Shown: piece after piece, positions 888 to 34,353 of the stretch | How the letters are laid out: each line of letters opens with the position of its first letter | How positions within the stretch are numbered: position 1 is the stretch's first letter | From: an uncultured Armatimonadota bacterium | GTDB taxonomy: Bacteria; Armatimonadota; Fimbriimonadia; Fimbriimonadales; Fimbriimonadaceae | NCBI GenBank assembly: GCA_903833215.1 | Contig: CAILEM010000054.1 | Location: forward strand, 1-64,000 | DNA: 64,000 nt | Direction of reading: 5' to 3' | Notes under the pieces: generated by a model | Told to the model about the DNA's origin: nothing | Databases searched by the model: none | What the model saw: the letters and a program-made list of their open reading frames with translations, nothing else | Program-made: the position numbers and the translations under genes

Positions 888-2087
888 GTGTATTCTTTGC
901 GTGACCTGACCAAGGCGGCTGAACGCATGGAATCACCCTCGGAAAACTCGCTCGAACGGCTGTTGGCTGCTTTCTGTGGCCCAGACGAAGCCAAGGCGGC
1001 GCATGCTTTTGAGGAGCTATCCGTGCTCACGCGTCGGGGGCTGAACAGCTATTTGCGGGAACGTCTGCACTCCGAAGAGGCGCGCGAAGACGTGATTCAG
1101 GATGTCCTCCGCCGGATCTGGACGCGTCGACTGCAGTTTGAAAACCGCGGTGCAGCAGCGTGGTGGTCGCTCGTCAAGCTCGCGGCCGAACAGTGTCGCG
1201 TCGACCTCGTGCGCAAGGTCGGATCTGAAGTCACCTGGGATGAAGCAGAAGTTGGTGAGGTTCCAAGCGATGAGATGTCATCGGTCGACGCCGTACTCCA
1301 AGACCTCAATGACGCCAACGAACTCTACCGGGCTGCCGATGAGCTTTGGCTTGGATTCGACCCCTCGCTCTCGGACGCAGAGCGTGCACGACGCACCCTT
1401 GCCGCCCACCTATTCTTCAACCTGAATATGGAGTGGCACCAAGTCTCTGACATCCTCAATCGCGGAAAGCCGAGCGAAACCGTCAAACGCGGGCAGCTTG
1501 ATGCGTGGCTGGCCAATCCCGCCACCATCCGATCCCTCGCATTTCGCACACTGTATCTCGACAACGCGGGCCTGACCGCTTCCCTGCTCCAACTGCCGTC
1601 GGACGAACCAAGTGAACTCCAGAAAGTGCGCGTTCAAGCGATGACCCAAAGTCCAACCGGTGCCCCGCCCGGCAACTGGACCTGGACCGAGATTCGCGTC
1701 ATCCTTTGGCGGTATCGCGACGCCGAGCGCGTTGACCGAATCCTCGCTCGAGAGTCATGCGTGTACGACAAGCAAGAAATTCAGGCGATTTTCGATAGAT
1801 GTCTTGCCGAATTCCCGTTCCCAAAGATAATGGAGCGGCTATGCACAAGTCTGACCAAATGGCCCAAGGCTCGGCAGGAGCTTATGGAATCGGGCATCTG
1901 GCAGCGATTGGTTTTTGAGATTTACGCAAAGGACACCACCCAACATCGCGACATTCACGATCGGACCTCACCGGCGGCATCCTTGGCACCCTATTCCCTC
2001 ACCACGGGGATGCTGAATGTGTGGCTCTCCAGCGGTCGCATGTTTGCCAAGCTAGCATCTTACGTGCAAGCCCGGATGGCCAAATAA
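888..2087 (+). CDS. ECF-like sigma-70 family protein, first gene of CHAT triad
   Basis: Residues about 40-112 match sigma-70 region 2: a helical stretch with SEEAREDVIQDVLRRIWTRR, then AWWSLVKLAAEQCRVDLVRK, the usual core-binding and -10-recognition segment of extracytoplasmic-function sigma factors. The protein is 399 residues, about twice a normal ECF factor. The remaining roughly 280 residues are helical and unfamiliar; EWHQVSDILNRGKPSETVKR near 184-204 could act as a divergent region-4 helix-turn-helix. I use the GTG at 888; an ATG at 927 (MESPSENS) is an alternative and neither has a good ribosome site. Its stop overlaps the next start (TAATG), so sigma and middle protein are coupled. 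The likely role is transcription control by a sigma factor released or modified by the CHAT protease encoded downstream. Confidence 0.75.
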   Translation: MYSLRDLTKAAERMESPSENSLERLLAAFCGPDEAKAAHAFEELSVLTRRGLNSYLRERLHSEEAREDVIQDVLRRIWTRRLQFENRGAAAWWSLVKLAAEQCRVDLVRKVGSEVTWDEAEVGEVPSDEMSSVDAVLQDLNDANELYRAADELWLGFDPSLSDAERARRTLAAHLFFNLNMEWHQVSDILNRGKPSETVKRGQLDAWLANPATIRSLAFRTLYLDNAGLTASLLQLPSDEPSELQKVRVQAMTQSPTGAPPGNWTWTEIRVILWRYRDAERVDRILARESCVYDKQEIQAIFDRCLAEFPFPKIMERLCTSLTKWPKARQELMESGIWQRLVFEIYAKDTTQHRDIHDRTSPAASLAPYSLTTGMLNVWLSSGRMFAKLASYVQARMAK

Positions 2088-11781: not shown

Positions 11782-12407
11782 GGAATCGAGACGCGAATTT
11801 CTTTCGTGTTGTCTACCTTCTGCCATCGACCCGTGAAAGCATGCAAGAACTGGCCGCCATGGCCCGAATGGCCGACGAGAAGGATGCGAGTCCCCGCGTA
11901 AGACCTGCGGAATTCCTCGATAGATGCCTCGACCTGAGCGAGTCCAGCATTGTAGTCCGACGCGACGGGGAGCCGATTCCGACTCGGGTCCACGATAAAC
12001 AGGTCGGCAATGTCCTTCGGGAGGACGACCTTGGCACCATAGCTAAAGCGAGTCGCCGCCGCATTCTTGGGCCGATGCCCCGTGCAGCACTCATAGAGAA
12101 GCGGCCAAACCGTCGCCTTCTGGTGAGATGCCCGCAAGTAAGGTGCAATCGTCTTTAGCGCCCTCGGAGAGGGAGATACTAAGATCTTCTCGAACTTCGG
12201 CTCCGACAGTAGCCGCCTGGTAAGGTCATCGACTCCAGCCTGCCCCTTTTCCGAAAACACGTTGAGGGTCTTCGAGTTGTACTTCCCCGTCGCATTCGCC
12301 ACCGTCTCCCCATGCCGCACAAACACCAAATCCGTCGGCTTCACCGAGGCAAACACAAACGCAAGAACAGCCCACACAAACAGAGGGTACCCACCGTCCG
12401 CTCCCAA
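11778..12407 (-). CDS. Histidine phosphatase superfamily protein, membrane-anchored or exported
   Basis: This 209-residue protein starts with a hydrophobic segment (residues about 8-22, PLFVWAVLAFVFASV), likely a signal or anchor. The RHGE motif at residues 31-34 supplies the phospho-accepting histidine, and VGHSGHGG near residue 176 gives the second conserved histidine. SPSPRALKT matches the usual phosphate-pocket arginine region. The substrate is unknown. Its 3' end overlaps the GH130-like gene by 4 bases in convergent orientation, and its 5' side opens onto the repeat island. Confidence 0.85.
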   Translation of the reverse strand: MGADGGYPLFVWAVLAFVFASVKPTDLVFVRHGETVANATGKYNSKTLNVFSEKGQAGVDDLTRRLLSEPKFEKILVSPSPRALKTIAPYLRASHQKATVWPLLYECCTGHRPKNAAATRFSYGAKVVLPKDIADLFIVDPSRNRLPVASDYNAGLAQVEASIEEFRRSYAGTRILLVGHSGHGGQFLHAFTGRWQKVDNTKEIRVSIP

Positions 12408-12422
12408 TCAGCCTCCTCCTGC

Positions 12423-12562
12423 GATGATGCCTCCAGCCGGAGCCATCGGCGGAGCCTGGAGGCTGCCCACAGAGTGCTCGGTCGGCGCAGAGTGCGTTTG
12501 CCCCAAAAGCAGATGGTTCGAGCCTCCAGGCTCCGCTTTCAGCTCCGGCTGGAGGCATCATC
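12423..12562. repeat. 140-bp near-perfect hairpin element
   Basis: The outer arms 12423-12443 and 12542-12562 are perfect 21-bp reverse complements. After a symmetric 5/5 internal mismatch, the inner arms 12449-12464 and 12521-12536 add 16 perfect pairs, leaving a 56-base apical loop. The arms carry the CTCCAGCCGG and GGAGCCTGGAGGC motifs. No plausible gene is encoded. This is either a MITE-like element or a structured RNA. It begins the gene-free island at 12408-13243. Confidence 0.85.
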
Positions 12563-12642
12563 GAGAGTGGTAATCCGGGGCCGCCGGACAAACGAACCGA
12601 TAACGTCATCGCGCCAACCCAATCGAAACAACGGGCCACGCC

Positions 12643-12925
12643 GGTTAGCCAAAGGCTATCCTCTCCAAAGAGCGAAGGCATGGGTCCGCGAGGACCCTTG
12701 CCTGGTACTTCGTAAGACCAAACCCGCCGACAATACGGTACAAATCCGGTTAGCCAAAGGCTATCCTCTCCAAAGAGCGAAGGCATGGGTCCGCGAGGAC
12801 CCTTGCCTGGTACTTCGTAAGACCAAACCCGCCGACAATACGGTACAAATCCGGTTTGCCAACGGCAATCCTCTCCAAAAAGCGAAGGCATGGGGCCCCG
12901 AGGACCCTTGCCTGGTATTCCAGGT
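12643..12925. repeat. Tandem 105-bp repeat with internal palindrome (2.7 copies)
   Basis: Units start at 12643, 12748 and 12853, exactly 105 bases apart. The first two are essentially identical; the third has diverged and stops after about 70 bases. Each unit holds a small AGCC-AAA-GGCT stem and a strong stem formed by GGCATGGGTCC and GGACCCTTGCC around a GCGA loop. Open reading frames crossing this block come from the periodicity, which is a multiple of three. Together with the neighbouring hairpin and the inverted copy, it fills an intergenic region of about 830 bases with no gene that I can support. Confidence 0.9.
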
Positions 12926-13071
12926 TCGCAATCGTTCCTTCCCTGAAAGGGATGCGTCCGGAAACGCTCGGATACATCCCAATTTTTGCATAACCGCGGT
13001 GACAGCCCACGTGAGATTCAACCGAACGGATGGAGACGGAACACCTTCGGCGTACGGGCCGGTACGCGGGC

Positions 13072-13139
13072 CAAATACCAGGGAAGACCCGTCGACGGGT
13101 CATCCCTTCGCTTTTTCGAGAAGATCACCGTTGGCGAAC
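13072..13139 (-). repeat. Diverged inverted copy of the 105-bp repeat core
   Basis: Read on the minus strand, this stretch repeats the same order of blocks as the tandem units: GCCAACGG, then an AAAAAGCGAAGG block, then a palindrome, then CCTGGTATT. The palindrome here is GACCCGTCGACGGGTC instead of the GGGTCC-GGACCC form, yet it still pairs completely. The flanks outside 13072-13139 no longer match. Confidence 0.75.
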
Positions 13140-13243
13140 TTGAGGGGGGTGGCACAGACTGTGAATACCGGGTCTTTCCCTTTGCCTCCTACAACGAACG
13201 GCCCTTCGCGCAAGAAATGATCCCATCTGAGCGATTGCTAGAC

Positions 13244-13660
13244 TCAATCCAAAACCAGATTTCCAATCAGGTCGTCATGACCGAAGTAGAAATGCTGCGA
13301 AAATTGCCCCGACCGAAGCCAAATGAGCGCAGTCGGAAGCCCCTGAAGTACAAAGCTCGCAACGGCTTGGGCGTCGCGGGTGTTAATCGGCGTCCCGTCG
13401 ATATGAGTCACCATGAGGTGAAGTAGGTCTTCTTCCCCCTCAAACTGATACCGATACTCGGCTACCGTCCCTGAAAAATCGTTTGGCTCAAGACCTAAGG
13501 AAAGTAGGGCAAACCGATCATCCGGCCGAGACAGGCTGGAATCGAACTCTGGAAGCTTGATGGTCTTGTTCGCGACAACAAAGTCGAGAATCCGTTTCAT
13601 GACCTCATTACGACGAGCGCCTTCCTCGGTCGAAGGTGATATTAAAGGAAGGCTGGACAT
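13244..13660 (-). CDS. Hypothetical protein
   Basis: This 138-residue soluble protein of unknown family contains FALLSLGLEPNDFSGTVAEYRYQFEGEEDLLHLMVTHIDG, then a segment DAQAVASFVLQGLPTALIWL. It has no signal peptide or known motif. The gene sits between the repeat island and tRNA-Ser on the same strand as both dprA-like and mtnP genes, 20 bases downstream of the tRNA 3' end. The coding pattern looks genuine, but nothing points to a role. Confidence 0.6.
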   Translation of the reverse strand: MSSLPLISPSTEEGARRNEVMKRILDFVVANKTIKLPEFDSSLSRPDDRFALLSLGLEPNDFSGTVAEYRYQFEGEEDLLHLMVTHIDGTPINTRDAQAVASFVLQGLPTALIWLRSGQFSQHFYFGHDDLIGNLVLD

Positions 13661-13679: not shown

Positions 13680-13772
13680 TGGCGGAGCGGGTGGGATTCG
13701 AACCCACGATCCGGTTCAACACCGGATACGCGATTTCCAGTCGCGCTCCTTCGACCACTCGGACACCACTCC
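13680..13772 (-). tRNA. tRNA-Ser (anticodon GGA)
   Basis: On the minus strand the acceptor GGAGTGG pairs with CCGCTCC. The D arm follows TG at positions 8-9, and the anticodon stem-loop GCGACTGGAAATCGC carries GGA. A long variable arm (ATCCGG/CCGGAT) is typical of serine tRNA. The T arm contains GGTTCGAATCC, and the gene encodes discriminator G plus CCA at 13680-13682. Length is 93 bases. Confidence 0.96.
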
Positions 13773-31244: not shown

Positions 31245-33524
31245 CTACTTCTTCGCCGCCCCGCAAAGAACACCGTACAACGCTGCCGTCGGTGCGATGT
31301 TTTGCCAGACAGTGAATTCGCTTGCCATGGGGCTGCACTGGTTGCTGAACCATCTTTCGGCACCGGGCCAAACGTCAATCTTGGGATAGACCGACTTGTT
31401 CGCCCAGTCGTGGTCCCAGGGACCTGGACCTTGCTCTTGATCCTTGCGCCAAATACCGTACGGCACAATGCCCGGGTTCAGACCTGTCGGTCGATACCAA
31501 GAGTCCATGTGAAAGACATGGAGGGGATTGCGTTGGCCAAGTCCAGTCACCCATGTCATATTCAGCGGATTGGTCCCAAGGAAGTAGTCGGCGGTCGTAA
31601 ACATCACGCTCCGCAGCCTCTCGTCTTTCGTCAGGCCGTAGGCGGCAATGATCGGCTCAATCATGGGAGTTGTCTGTTGGCCAACGAGCATCGGCATACC
31701 GAAAGAGCCACCCCATCGCAGAGCTCGCTTATCGGCTGATGTTACGCCAAGTTCAGCGGTATGCAGAATTGCTGCCCGAAGACGCATTTCCAAGTCCGCC
31801 TTCTTTCGATGCGAGGCAGGTGCCATCAGGTAAGCAGTCGGTCCAAATAGGGTCGCATCCCACAACTCGCTGTTCGCACCGATCGTTTGGGTGTCGTGAT
31901 CTAGCTGAGCTTCATACTCACTCTCTCCGGTGAGAGCAGATAATGCTCCCGCTGCGTAGATCCGTTCTTTGATCAGTTTCGGCTCGTCACCTGCCCGCGT
32001 GTTTACTTTCGCCCAGGCCCAACTCTCAATCGCCTCGCGCCGCCAATCAACGCCTTTTGGGTCTTTGGCGTGGGCAATTTCAAGGCATCGTGCAAGTTGT
32101 GCGGCCGCACCCGCGTACTGGTAAGTCGACAACGGGTCTTCACCACTTACGATCCATGTTCGATCGACGTCCTGCCAAGAACCACGCCCCACATCGGCGG
32201 GACCGGTGTCAGACCCGAAATGATCGCCGCATGCCCGCAGCCCAATCCCGCCTGTTCCCCACTTTTTGTCCATGAGAGCATGGCGAAGGCGATAGCCGTA
32301 GCGTGGAAGCCACGCTGCCTCGTTGAGGATGTCAGGCAGGCCGTTGCTGCTCTCTGGAATATTCAGTTCGTGCGCCGCAAAGTTGGCCGGTGCCACCTGG
32401 TACGCAAGCAGTAACTCCTGCGCAATTTGGATATGCGTGTAATATCCATCCCAATCTCCTGCATCCTGATACCAACCCCACACATCAATCGGTCCTTTGA
32501 AGCCTGCCTTAATCGCAGGCACGTCGTCTGCCGACGCCTCCCAATTCTTCCAATCAATCATCCGTGAGGACGTGTACTGCAGCTTTCCACTGAAACCGGG
32601 GGTGATTTGAGGGTTGTGGGGAGCGGGGCGTTCGAACGTCGTATATGGCTTGGTCAGAGCGATGCCACTACGGTTGTGATAGAGCCCCCGCGTCGCCGTG
32701 CGAAACGCTTCGCGATACACGTCGGAGTCGATGCGAAATGTCGTGGAACATCCCACCCCGTCGACGGCTAACCGGTAGGTTCCCGATTTTTGAAAGGTTG
32801 AAAAATCGCACTCCAGCACGTCGGTGGCCAAGAAACTCCCGTTGGGAGTCTCGTTCACGTGTTGCGTCTCGGCGTTGATTGCGTTGCTTCGAAAAGCAGT
32901 CAAACCCTTGAGTGCAATAGCCCCAGTTTTAGCATCGATCAACTTGAATGGATGACCAATCCGATCGCTGACGTTCATCCCTCCCGCATCGCCTAGCCAA
33001 GCGTATACATATCCCAACTTCTTGGGTGCCGAGGGCGCATAGCCTAAAAGGTTGACATGAACCGCCTCGGAGATTGAGTCCGAGTCGCTGTAAGTAAATC
33101 TTGCCGTCGTTGCCAGGGCACCGGGGGCATCGATCGTCACTGCTTGGCCATTTCGAAGAGGCTTACCTAAGAAAAGGTAGATCCAGTGGTCCTTAACATG
33201 ATCCGGACGGTCGTTCTCAAAGTGCCCATTTGCCCACCGGTCGGCATACCAAGCGAAATCGGTTCCTTTTGACTTCCGCCCGATTCGAACGGGATGGCCC
33301 AAACCGCCAATGGTCCACGTTTCGATGCGGGAAGCTCTGCTCACATCGAGCGGGGCGATAATGACTTTTTCGTCGGTGCGTTTATGACCTATAGTGTGGT
33401 GCTCTACATGGCCCTCGGACAGGTGCACCTCCAAAATATCGCTACGGATTGCACGGACAGAAACAAGGTTCGGTGTTTGGTAACTGATGCCAGTTAGGAG
33501 CAGAAGCGTAGCGACTTGAATCAT
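31245..33524 (-). CDS. Secreted glycoside hydrolase family 9 (endoglucanase-like)
   Basis: This 759-residue protein has signal MIQVATLLLLTGISYQTP. An Ig-like CelD_N domain lies at about 150-260 (AVHVNLLGYAPSAPKKLGYVYAW ... GTYRLAVDGVGCSTTFRI). The (alpha/alpha)6 catalytic domain runs from about 265 to the end: GWYQDAGDWDGYY near 355 supplies the catalytic Asp pair, TADYFLGTNPLNMTWVTGLGQRNPLHVFH near 655 the substrate-binding His segment, and SEFTVWQNIAPTAALYG near 736 the proton-donor Glu. GH9 enzymes cleave beta-1,4-glucans by inversion. The gene lies 70 bases downstream of the sugar operon and may be read with it. Confidence 0.92.
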   Translation of the reverse strand: MIQVATLLLLTGISYQTPNLVSVRAIRSDILEVHLSEGHVEHHTIGHKRTDEKVIIAPLDVSRASRIETWTIGGLGHPVRIGRKSKGTDFAWYADRWANGHFENDRPDHVKDHWIYLFLGKPLRNGQAVTIDAPGALATTARFTYSDSDSISEAVHVNLLGYAPSAPKKLGYVYAWLGDAGGMNVSDRIGHPFKLIDAKTGAIALKGLTAFRSNAINAETQHVNETPNGSFLATDVLECDFSTFQKSGTYRLAVDGVGCSTTFRIDSDVYREAFRTATRGLYHNRSGIALTKPYTTFERPAPHNPQITPGFSGKLQYTSSRMIDWKNWEASADDVPAIKAGFKGPIDVWGWYQDAGDWDGYYTHIQIAQELLLAYQVAPANFAAHELNIPESSNGLPDILNEAAWLPRYGYRLRHALMDKKWGTGGIGLRACGDHFGSDTGPADVGRGSWQDVDRTWIVSGEDPLSTYQYAGAAAQLARCLEIAHAKDPKGVDWRREAIESWAWAKVNTRAGDEPKLIKERIYAAGALSALTGESEYEAQLDHDTQTIGANSELWDATLFGPTAYLMAPASHRKKADLEMRLRAAILHTAELGVTSADKRALRWGGSFGMPMLVGQQTTPMIEPIIAAYGLTKDERLRSVMFTTADYFLGTNPLNMTWVTGLGQRNPLHVFHMDSWYRPTGLNPGIVPYGIWRKDQEQGPGPWDHDWANKSVYPKIDVWPGAERWFSNQCSPMASEFTVWQNIAPTAALYGVLCGAAKK

Positions 33525-33594
33525 TTTTGGTTTCCTAGGATTCGAGGCAAAAGAATGCTATTCGGTGGTGTTTTTTGGCGCTCAGAGCTCCTCC

Positions 33595-34353
33595 TTACCG
33601 TGCGGGCAGGCGGCCGACCTCCATAAACTCTCCCTTGATTCGCTGGCTGGCGATTAGGATGTCCTCGGGAATATCTACATGGTCGATGAAATTTCTCCCG
33701 TTCGGGCCATAGCCTTCAGCGTCGTCGCGCAGGCGATCGATTTCACCTACGACGAGAGAGATGAATCGGGAAAGGCTCCACATCGGGTCAGCTTCTACAT
33801 TCCATTGCAGCGCCGACCCCAATTCTGGAATGAACGGCGCAAAGCTGATGAGTCGTGTACCGGGGGCATTTCGCCAGGCGCGTTCGAATGTGGCGTGGGT
33901 CCTGCGTTGCATTGTCGGGTCTTGGATGATGACGAGGGAGTTAACTCCTCCTAGTTCATCCAATGTCCGTCTTGACTCCTCCGCGTTCTCGCCGCAGTTG
34001 CGAGAGCGAGTTTCCATCAGAACGACACTGGACGGAACGCCTAAGACTTTCACCAGAAGATCGCGCATCATCTCGCTTTCGGAGCGACCTTCCGTTGCAA
34101 TTCCGGACCACTGAGGGTTGGCGGAAATATGAGATCTAAGGTCTTCGGTGGAATGCCCGATCCCACCTGACACGAGAATCTTTGGTGCGATGCCATCGCA
34201 CCAAGCCTGAGCAGCAACACGGACGGAAGCAATGAGGCTACTTCCAACAAGAACGATCGCATCAACCGGCGACCCCAAGGCTTGCAGATCGAGCCGCGAG
34301 ATATCACGGCGCGCCAACCAATTTGATACCCGATTCAGGTCGTTATGGATCAA
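33595..34353 (-). CDS. YdcF/SanA-type DUF218 protein
   Basis: This 252-residue protein has the DUF218 layout: DAIVLVGSSLIASVRVAAQAW near residue 28, KILVSGGIGHSTEDLRSH near 60, VLMETRSRNCGENAEESRRTLDELG near 115, and LVIIQDPTMQRRTHATFER near 140. The core residues (VSGGxG, E.xS.nT-like, MxRa) are of the YdcF type. It has no membrane anchor, unlike SanA/ElyC, so it is likely cytoplasmic. Its role is unclear; the ATG overlaps the isomerase stop by 4 bases, placing it in the sugar operon. Confidence 0.85.
   Translation of the reverse strand: MIHNDLNRVSNWLARRDISRLDLQALGSPVDAIVLVGSSLIASVRVAAQAWCDGIAPKILVSGGIGHSTEDLRSHISANPQWSGIATEGRSESEMMRDLLVKVLGVPSSVVLMETRSRNCGENAEESRRTLDELGGVNSLVIIQDPTMQRRTHATFERAWRNAPGTRLISFAPFIPELGSALQWNVEADPMWSLSRFISLVVGEIDRLRDDAEGYGPNGRNFIDHVDIPEDILIASQRIKGEFMEVGRLPAR

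Follow-up and report, generated by a model that had tools for sequence, protein, structure and literature searches.

The repeats studied here lie in a 64,000-nt stretch of DNA (referred to as the window) between a gene of the histidine-phosphatase family (PF00300; 11778-12407) and a 138-aa ORF (13244-13660) that matches no Pfam family. A tRNA-Ser (GGA) gene is located nearby, at 13680-13772 on the minus strand. Two long ORFs extend into the repeats, one on the plus strand (12312-13220, 302 aa) and one on the minus strand (12226-12891, 221 aa); both are probably spurious and could be annotated as genes. Just upstream is a second inverted-repeat family (12420-12566, with arms at 12422-12464 and 12521-12563), which has 131 matches in the genome and was not found in the genome's seven Y1_Tnp loci.

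Direct repeats of 105 nt start at positions 12641, 12746, and 12851, with identities of 100%, 100%, and 69%, and inverted arms of 66 nt each, 76% complementary, occupy 12854-12919 and 13074-13139. The central palindrome is GGGTCC-GCGA-GGACCC in the first two tandem units and GACCCGTCGACGGGTC in the inverted copy. A sequence-only reading of this DNA had described three tandem units and one diverged inverted copy whose central palindromes differ yet remain paired, and both parts of that description were borne out. A 22-nt block pattern matched four times in the window; 100 shuffles gave a mean of 0.00 matches. We scanned the window with R1, a covariance model of the 69-nt core (two hairpins) built from 34 units of this genome alone, and recovered exactly four units, three on the plus strand and one on the minus strand. 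One element has the third tandem unit as one end and the inverted copy as the other, with hp1 outermost at both ends and an interior between them. The pair of identical units upstream of it appears to stem from a local tandem duplication. The features are as follows.

12640-12745, plus strand: tandem unit 1, 100% identical to unit 2 (R1 match 12640-12708, 88.9 bits)
about 12643-12661, plus strand: hp1 of tandem unit 1
about 12676-12703, plus strand: hp2 of tandem unit 1
12745-12849, plus strand: tandem unit 2, an exact copy of unit 1 (R1 match 12745-12813, 91.8 bits)
12850-13143, no strand assigned: complete miniature element of ~294 bp (R1 matches 12850-12918 on the plus strand and 13075-13143 on the minus strand)
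12853-12871, plus strand: hp1, left end of the element (unit alignment, fold)
12886-12913, plus strand: hp2, left end, a long stem inside AGGCA...TGCCT (covariation, fold)
12937-12959, plus strand: hp3, left end, with a GCGTCC tag (CCTTCCCTGAAAGGGATGCGTCC; sequence)
13035-13056, minus strand: hp3 region, right end, with a GACGG tag as read on the plus strand, partly degenerate (sequence, full-element alignment)
13080-13107, minus strand: hp2, right end (AGGGAAGACCCGTCGACGGGTCATCCCT on the plus strand; inverted-arm search, fold)
13122-13140, minus strand: hp1, right end (R1 match 13075-13143, fold)

Read inward, a unit of ~110 nt comprises hp1, a linker, hp2, TGGTA, about 20 variable nucleotides, and hp3 with a GCGTC-type tag. 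The outermost hairpin, hp1, is GGTTNGCC-AAA-GGCNATCC with a 3-nt loop; the linker to hp2 is TCTCCAAAAAGCGAAGG; and hp2 is a long central stem in GGCATG...CTTGCC. For the consensus and first alignment, we used 34 of 36 parsed units, omitting one exact near-duplicate and one partial unit. Among 84 distinct units, an hp3 stem of at least 5 was present in 51 when read inward compared with 19 when read outward, and the GCGTC-type tag, which stands on the 3' side of hp3, in 61 compared with 2. Two observations count against the interpretation that we favor below: hp3 is less regular than hp1 and hp2, with stem and tag found together in only 39 of the 84 units under a strict test, and it is missing from the two exact upstream tandem units, with the 38 nt located 3' of hp2 in unit 1 containing no recognizable hp3.

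Scanning the whole genome with R1, as the sequence-only reading had proposed, yielded 82 full-length matches (E ≤ 1e-3) on 33 contigs. With these copies and the strong covariation described below, the outcome that was to refute that reading, an absence of additional copies and of covariation, clearly did not arise. Among these matches are 15 inverted pairs with an outer length of 288-295 bp, which are inverted doublets of fixed spacing, as in REPINs. Neighboring units less than 500 nt apart were arranged as 17 inverted pairs with hp1 outermost, 6 direct pairs on the plus strand, 3 direct pairs on the minus strand, and 2 pairs of the opposite inversion. The element at 12850-13143 shares 83% identity overall with a copy on contig C28 (79% in the interior and 52% in the left flanks). 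Across element copies, interior identity was 79% for the C54/C28 pair, 82% for C25a/C25b, and 59% as the mean of all pairs. Copies have their interiors in common while their left flanks average 46% identity, so the copying involved entire elements. Units in the 15 complete pairs (30 units) were more similar to one another than other units (54 units), at 0.730 compared with 0.674, a result reached in 0 of 300 permutations. A direct repeat of at least 3 at the element junctions, i.e., a target duplication, was found in 0 of the 15 elements. The outward flanks exhibited a weak preference for G at +2 to +4 beyond the terminal A (0.25-0.34 bits), and no firm target motif emerged from them.

The sequence-only reading had taken the palindromes as a sign of selection for a stem. 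In the alignment of 34 units, we found double changes in 12 of 18 stem pairs (86 cells, compared with a shuffled mean of 24.5). In the 84 distinct units, double changes occurred in 16 of 18 pairs (314 cells, compared with a shuffled mean of 111 and above all 500 shuffles), and 93.6% of cells were paired compared with 70.7% in shuffles. Sliding the partner column by one lowered the score of the 84 units from 0.548 to at most 0.086. The 84-unit alignment was fitted to the structure and therefore leans toward it; the 34-unit alignment was not so fitted. Collectively, these results support selection for the stems.

Covariation and stems would look alike in RNA, and a structured regulatory RNA or bidirectional terminator, with the stems kept as transcript folds, could also be proposed for this locus. 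On the minus strand, positions 12883-12900, part of hp2 read outward, are followed by CTTTTT and resemble a terminator. In addition, cells of the G-T type outnumber those of the A-C type (45 compared with 27, in the hp1-to-hp2 reading). However, the T run is not common to the related families, and the 45 G-T cells stand against 1,359 Watson-Crick cells. We dropped a call of the strand from the G-T and A-C cells, as the difference is too weak to decide it. Rfam gave no match at the gathering score in four loci (L102, L103, L097, and L112), and the window region gave sub-threshold matches only at E ≤ 5. Since the elements are inverted pairs, both strands fold, and the related ends described below enclose transposase genes. 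We therefore consider an RNA or terminator function improbable, and the regulatory RNA suggested by the sequence-only reading is unsupported here, no Rfam family being matched above its cut-off. Separately, the terminator-like part of hp2 may have a side effect on neighboring transcription.

We then examined transposase genes in this assembly and in its relatives. The assembly contains seven Y1_Tnp genes, none of which is flanked by this repeat family (0/7); the best R1 match near one of them had an E value of 0.0018 (L050). This result counts against the interpretation that we favor. A search for a transposase relic in the element loci of this genome and between widely spaced pairs gave no convincing match (best tblastn E value, 0.065), which also counts against that interpretation, and neither an empty site nor an excision was seen for this family. 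The Y1_Tnp genes at L047, L048, L050, L051, and L053 are each flanked by inverted hairpin repeats of their own, so several such systems coexist in this genome. On contig C112 (L031, 2760-5600), hybrid repeats consist of a window-type unit followed by repeats like those around the L048 transposase gene. Also on C112, the region 32123-34183 was considered as a gene-carrying transposon and dropped, as its interior consists of other repeats and small ORFs with no Y1 gene.

Strong R1 matches are confined to this genome. At E ≤ 0.01, three of 41 genomes were positive (this genome, G004, and G007), and at E ≤ 1e-6, four of 85 genomes of the family were positive (the same three and G043). In G007, a complete genome of the same genus, R1 matches surround a Y1_Tnp gene in inverted order (L097; plus strand at 1270 and 1424, minus strand at 2044 and 2192). 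The gene encodes a 151-aa protein (1540-1992, minus strand) that matches Pfam PF01797 (6.2e-21) and the NCBIfam IS200-type family (8.3e-16). At a second G007 locus (L098), a remnant of the C-terminal part of a Y1 gene of this type lies between the paired units. In G043, which belongs to another genus, the best unit match (L254, 1501-1570) stands a short way upstream of a full-length Y1 gene (1640-2083); a downstream partner unit was not found at this locus. In total, 16 distinct places were examined in relatives, and 3 of them had a Y1 gene or remnant; this fraction is not an unbiased rate because the loci were picked from the best or paired R1 matches. The repeats at the Y1 genes of G007 and G043 are diverged relatives of the window's repeat. 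The sequence-only reading had called for a search for a RAYT-like transposase: Y1 genes lie between related units in G007 and beside one in G043, and none was found with this family in this assembly.

G007 also carries a whole element of the same layout, belonging to another family than that of the window, at two unrelated sites (L121 and L125). These elements, 651 and 653 bp long, consist of a gene between two ends and are identical at 643 of 653 aligned columns (98.5%); the 200 nt outside them share 33.5% (left) and 23% (right) identity. Both ends of the element coincide exactly with the outer edge of hp1, and neither site has a target duplication. In the L125 copy, the catalytic tyrosine is replaced by cysteine.

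Long inverted ends, a fixed length, and the lack of a gene would also fit a conventional MITE with terminal inverted repeats moved by a DDE transposase. This explanation is very unlikely given that the genes inside related ends are of the Y1/HuH type and that target duplications are missing at all 15 elements and at the two G007 sites.

Eleven proteins from three genomes share the motifs DHVH or DHIH, WQ, and Y---Q--HH, with the tyrosine lost in L125. The associated proteins are ~150 aa long, lack a long C-terminal extension, and have a profile that matches solved IS608-type TnpA structures. These motifs, DH[IV]H, WQ, and Y---Q--HH, define TnpAY1 subclass 1.2, which is reported to be without REPs and without IS properties in the available text of Quentin et al. 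(2018, PMC6006769).

The signature bears on canonical REP/RAYT systems, in which short GTAG- or CGTC-tagged REPs are spread by class 2 TnpA(REP) proteins. Such systems share with our repeats the inverted doublets, the compensatory changes, and, through the related families, the link to Y1 genes. GTAG and CGTC REPs are 20-40 bp long, with GT[AG]G or CGTC at the 5' foot of the hairpin, in the available text of Di Nocera et al. (2013, PMC3733652), a single palindrome compared with ~110-nt units with several hairpins here, and the consensus of our unit alignment contains neither GTAG nor CTAC. The CGTC-tagged version fails on the position of the tag: GCGTC stands on the 3' side of hp3, whereas the CGTC described in that text is 5'. 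In addition, the protein motifs are DH[VI]H, WQ, and Y---Q--HH, and not Y---NP. A canonical REP is, like the MITE, a very unlikely account. The REP/RAYT lead of the sequence-only reading was right in a broad sense, since relatives of the repeat flank Y1/HuH transposase genes, and wrong for the canonical form, given the ~110-nt units with up to three hairpins, the missing GTAG, and the subclass 1.2 signature.

In our judgment, the repeats are probably the ends of a non-autonomous element that belongs to a group of HuH transposons with multi-hairpin inverted ends and derives from a Y1 transposon. In its complete form (12850-13143), two inverted ~110-nt units, each with hp1, hp2, and hp3, would surround a short gene-less interior. 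Its most likely ancestor is an element with a Y1 (HuH/tyrosine) transposase gene between the same ends. This transposase would recognize the hairpins on single-stranded DNA and cleave at hp1's outer foot, the strand and the chemistry of this step being inferred; the element would then be excised and re-inserted without target duplication. A transposase of this lineage presumably moves, or once moved, the window's family. The cognate transposase of this genome, not found in this assembly, is missing or unassembled. The window element is best read as REPIN/TIRtron-like (or as a MITE-like derivative), not as a canonical REP/RAYT.

To place these proteins in a wider group, we scanned named genomes and kept 80 loci from at least 540 relatives, which come mostly from Verrucomicrobia, Planctomycetes, and Bacteroidetes and also from Armatimonadetes, Acidobacteria, and others. 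One of the 80 fetched loci left the flank test for short flanks. The test ran on 90 loci, 56 of them positive; after removal of duplicates of G004 genes (L141 = L117 and L173 = L120), the similarity of the upstream and downstream flanks, read outward, exceeded the 99% level set by pairs of mismatched loci at 54 of 88 distinct loci. Inverted flanks were found at 20 of 33 loci in Verrucomicrobia, 13 of 17 in Planctomycetes, 3 of 4 in Acidobacteria, and 2 of 11 in Bacteroidetes, in contrast to the reported absence of REP-like flanks in subclass 1.2. Significant inverted flanks were missing at the other 34 of 88 loci, which counts against the interpretation that we favor.

We counted hairpins in the arms of 77 loci, leaving out the two G004 duplicates and one short-arm locus. 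At least three hairpins were present in 65 of 154 proximal arms (140 nt) compared with 6 of 141 distal stretches; the proximal-arm counts were weak in Acidobacteria (1/8) and Armatimonadota (1/6). Arms of 170 nt had a mean of 2.81 hairpins compared with 1.32 in shuffles. One arm from Verrucomicrobium sp. BvORR106 had 41 matches in its own genome, and one from Terriglobus albidus had 56, some of which form inverted pairs of about 260 bp. Of 91 available proteins, 65 were used to build a tree (two of the proteins left out duplicate G004 genes). DH[IV]H was present in 63 of the 65, WQ in 65, and Y---Q--HH in 64, the subclass being assigned by this motif signature. In the tree, the Fimbriimonas proteins are interspersed with those of other phyla, a distribution compatible with transfer or old paralogy. 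We lean, by a modest margin, toward a single transposon group with three-hairpin ends that spans Verrucomicrobia, Planctomycetes, Acidobacteria, Armatimonadota, and perhaps Bacteroidetes, in which TnpAY1 proteins of the subclass 1.2 type would be the active HuH transposases and amplify gene-less miniatures of ~260-290 bp like that of the window.

Several described systems resemble these elements in part. Members of the IS200/IS605 family (IS608, ISDra2) have a HuH Y1 transposase and terminal hairpins and, like the elements here, show no target duplication. Known members have small subterminal hairpins and the subclass 1.1 motif, unlike the long inverted multi-hairpin ends found here. With REPINs and REPtrons, our repeats share dispersed palindromic units, mostly in inverted pairs with a fixed spacing, along with compensatory changes and a Y1/HuH link. 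As in REPINs, defined by Bertels & Rainey (2011, PMC3116915), whose available text reports that paired units are better conserved than the rest, units in pairs are better conserved here. In contrast, our units of ~110 nt have up to three hairpins, form an element of ~290 bp, lack a GTAG foot, and go with a subclass 1.2 signature, and a gene-carrying element of this kind occurs whole, twice, in one genome (G007).

TIRtrons are Y1 genes between long terminal inverted repeats, according to the available text of Di Nocera et al. (2013, PMC3733652), and 20 of 26 TIRYTs fall in subclass 2.1, with the rest in 2.2 and 2.5, according to that of Quentin et al. (2018, PMC6006769). The elements at L123/L097, L121, and L125 likewise have a Y1 gene between long terminal inverted repeats, as do the 54 loci with inverted flanks; in both cases some repeats are self-complementary and dispersed copies occur in some genomes. 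The proteins here have the subclass 1.2 motif, not that of subclass 2.1 with a C-terminal HTH, and the hp1-hp2-hp3 layout is not described for TIRtrons in the text available. Class 3 TnpAY1 (Solibacter), with atypical structures in the available part of Quentin et al. (2018, PMC6006769), similarly comprises Y1 genes with several atypical flanking structures, numerous in the genome and found in Acidobacteria and Planctomycetes. Unlike the proteins here, class 3 has the motifs NHVH, W[TA], and Y----Q and a CnGA foot, and the inverted hp1-hp2-hp3 layout is not described in that part.

In the open-licence PMC literature, we found no description of three-hairpin ends for subclass 1.2 and no paper combining Armatimonadetes, REPs, and a transposase. 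The available text on the F. ginsengisoli genome reports only 12 transposase genes and an apparent lack of known IS elements (PMC4072686). The statement of the sequence-only reading that no described family has these blocks holds for the libraries and open-licence PMC literature searched. The window repeat is one of a kind of HuH mobile element that has been little described.

These findings provide a likely substrate for a branch of single-strand transposases described as having none. One genus contains the gene-carrying element at two sites, a derivative with a truncated gene, and a gene-less miniature. These are naturally occurring steps on the way from complete transposons to the REP-like debris that is widespread in the genomes of bacteria. 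The three-hairpin end poses a new recognition problem for HuH enzymes, and elements of this kind may explain part of the hairpin repeats that lack assignment in the genomes of Verrucomicrobia, Planctomycetes, and Acidobacteria.
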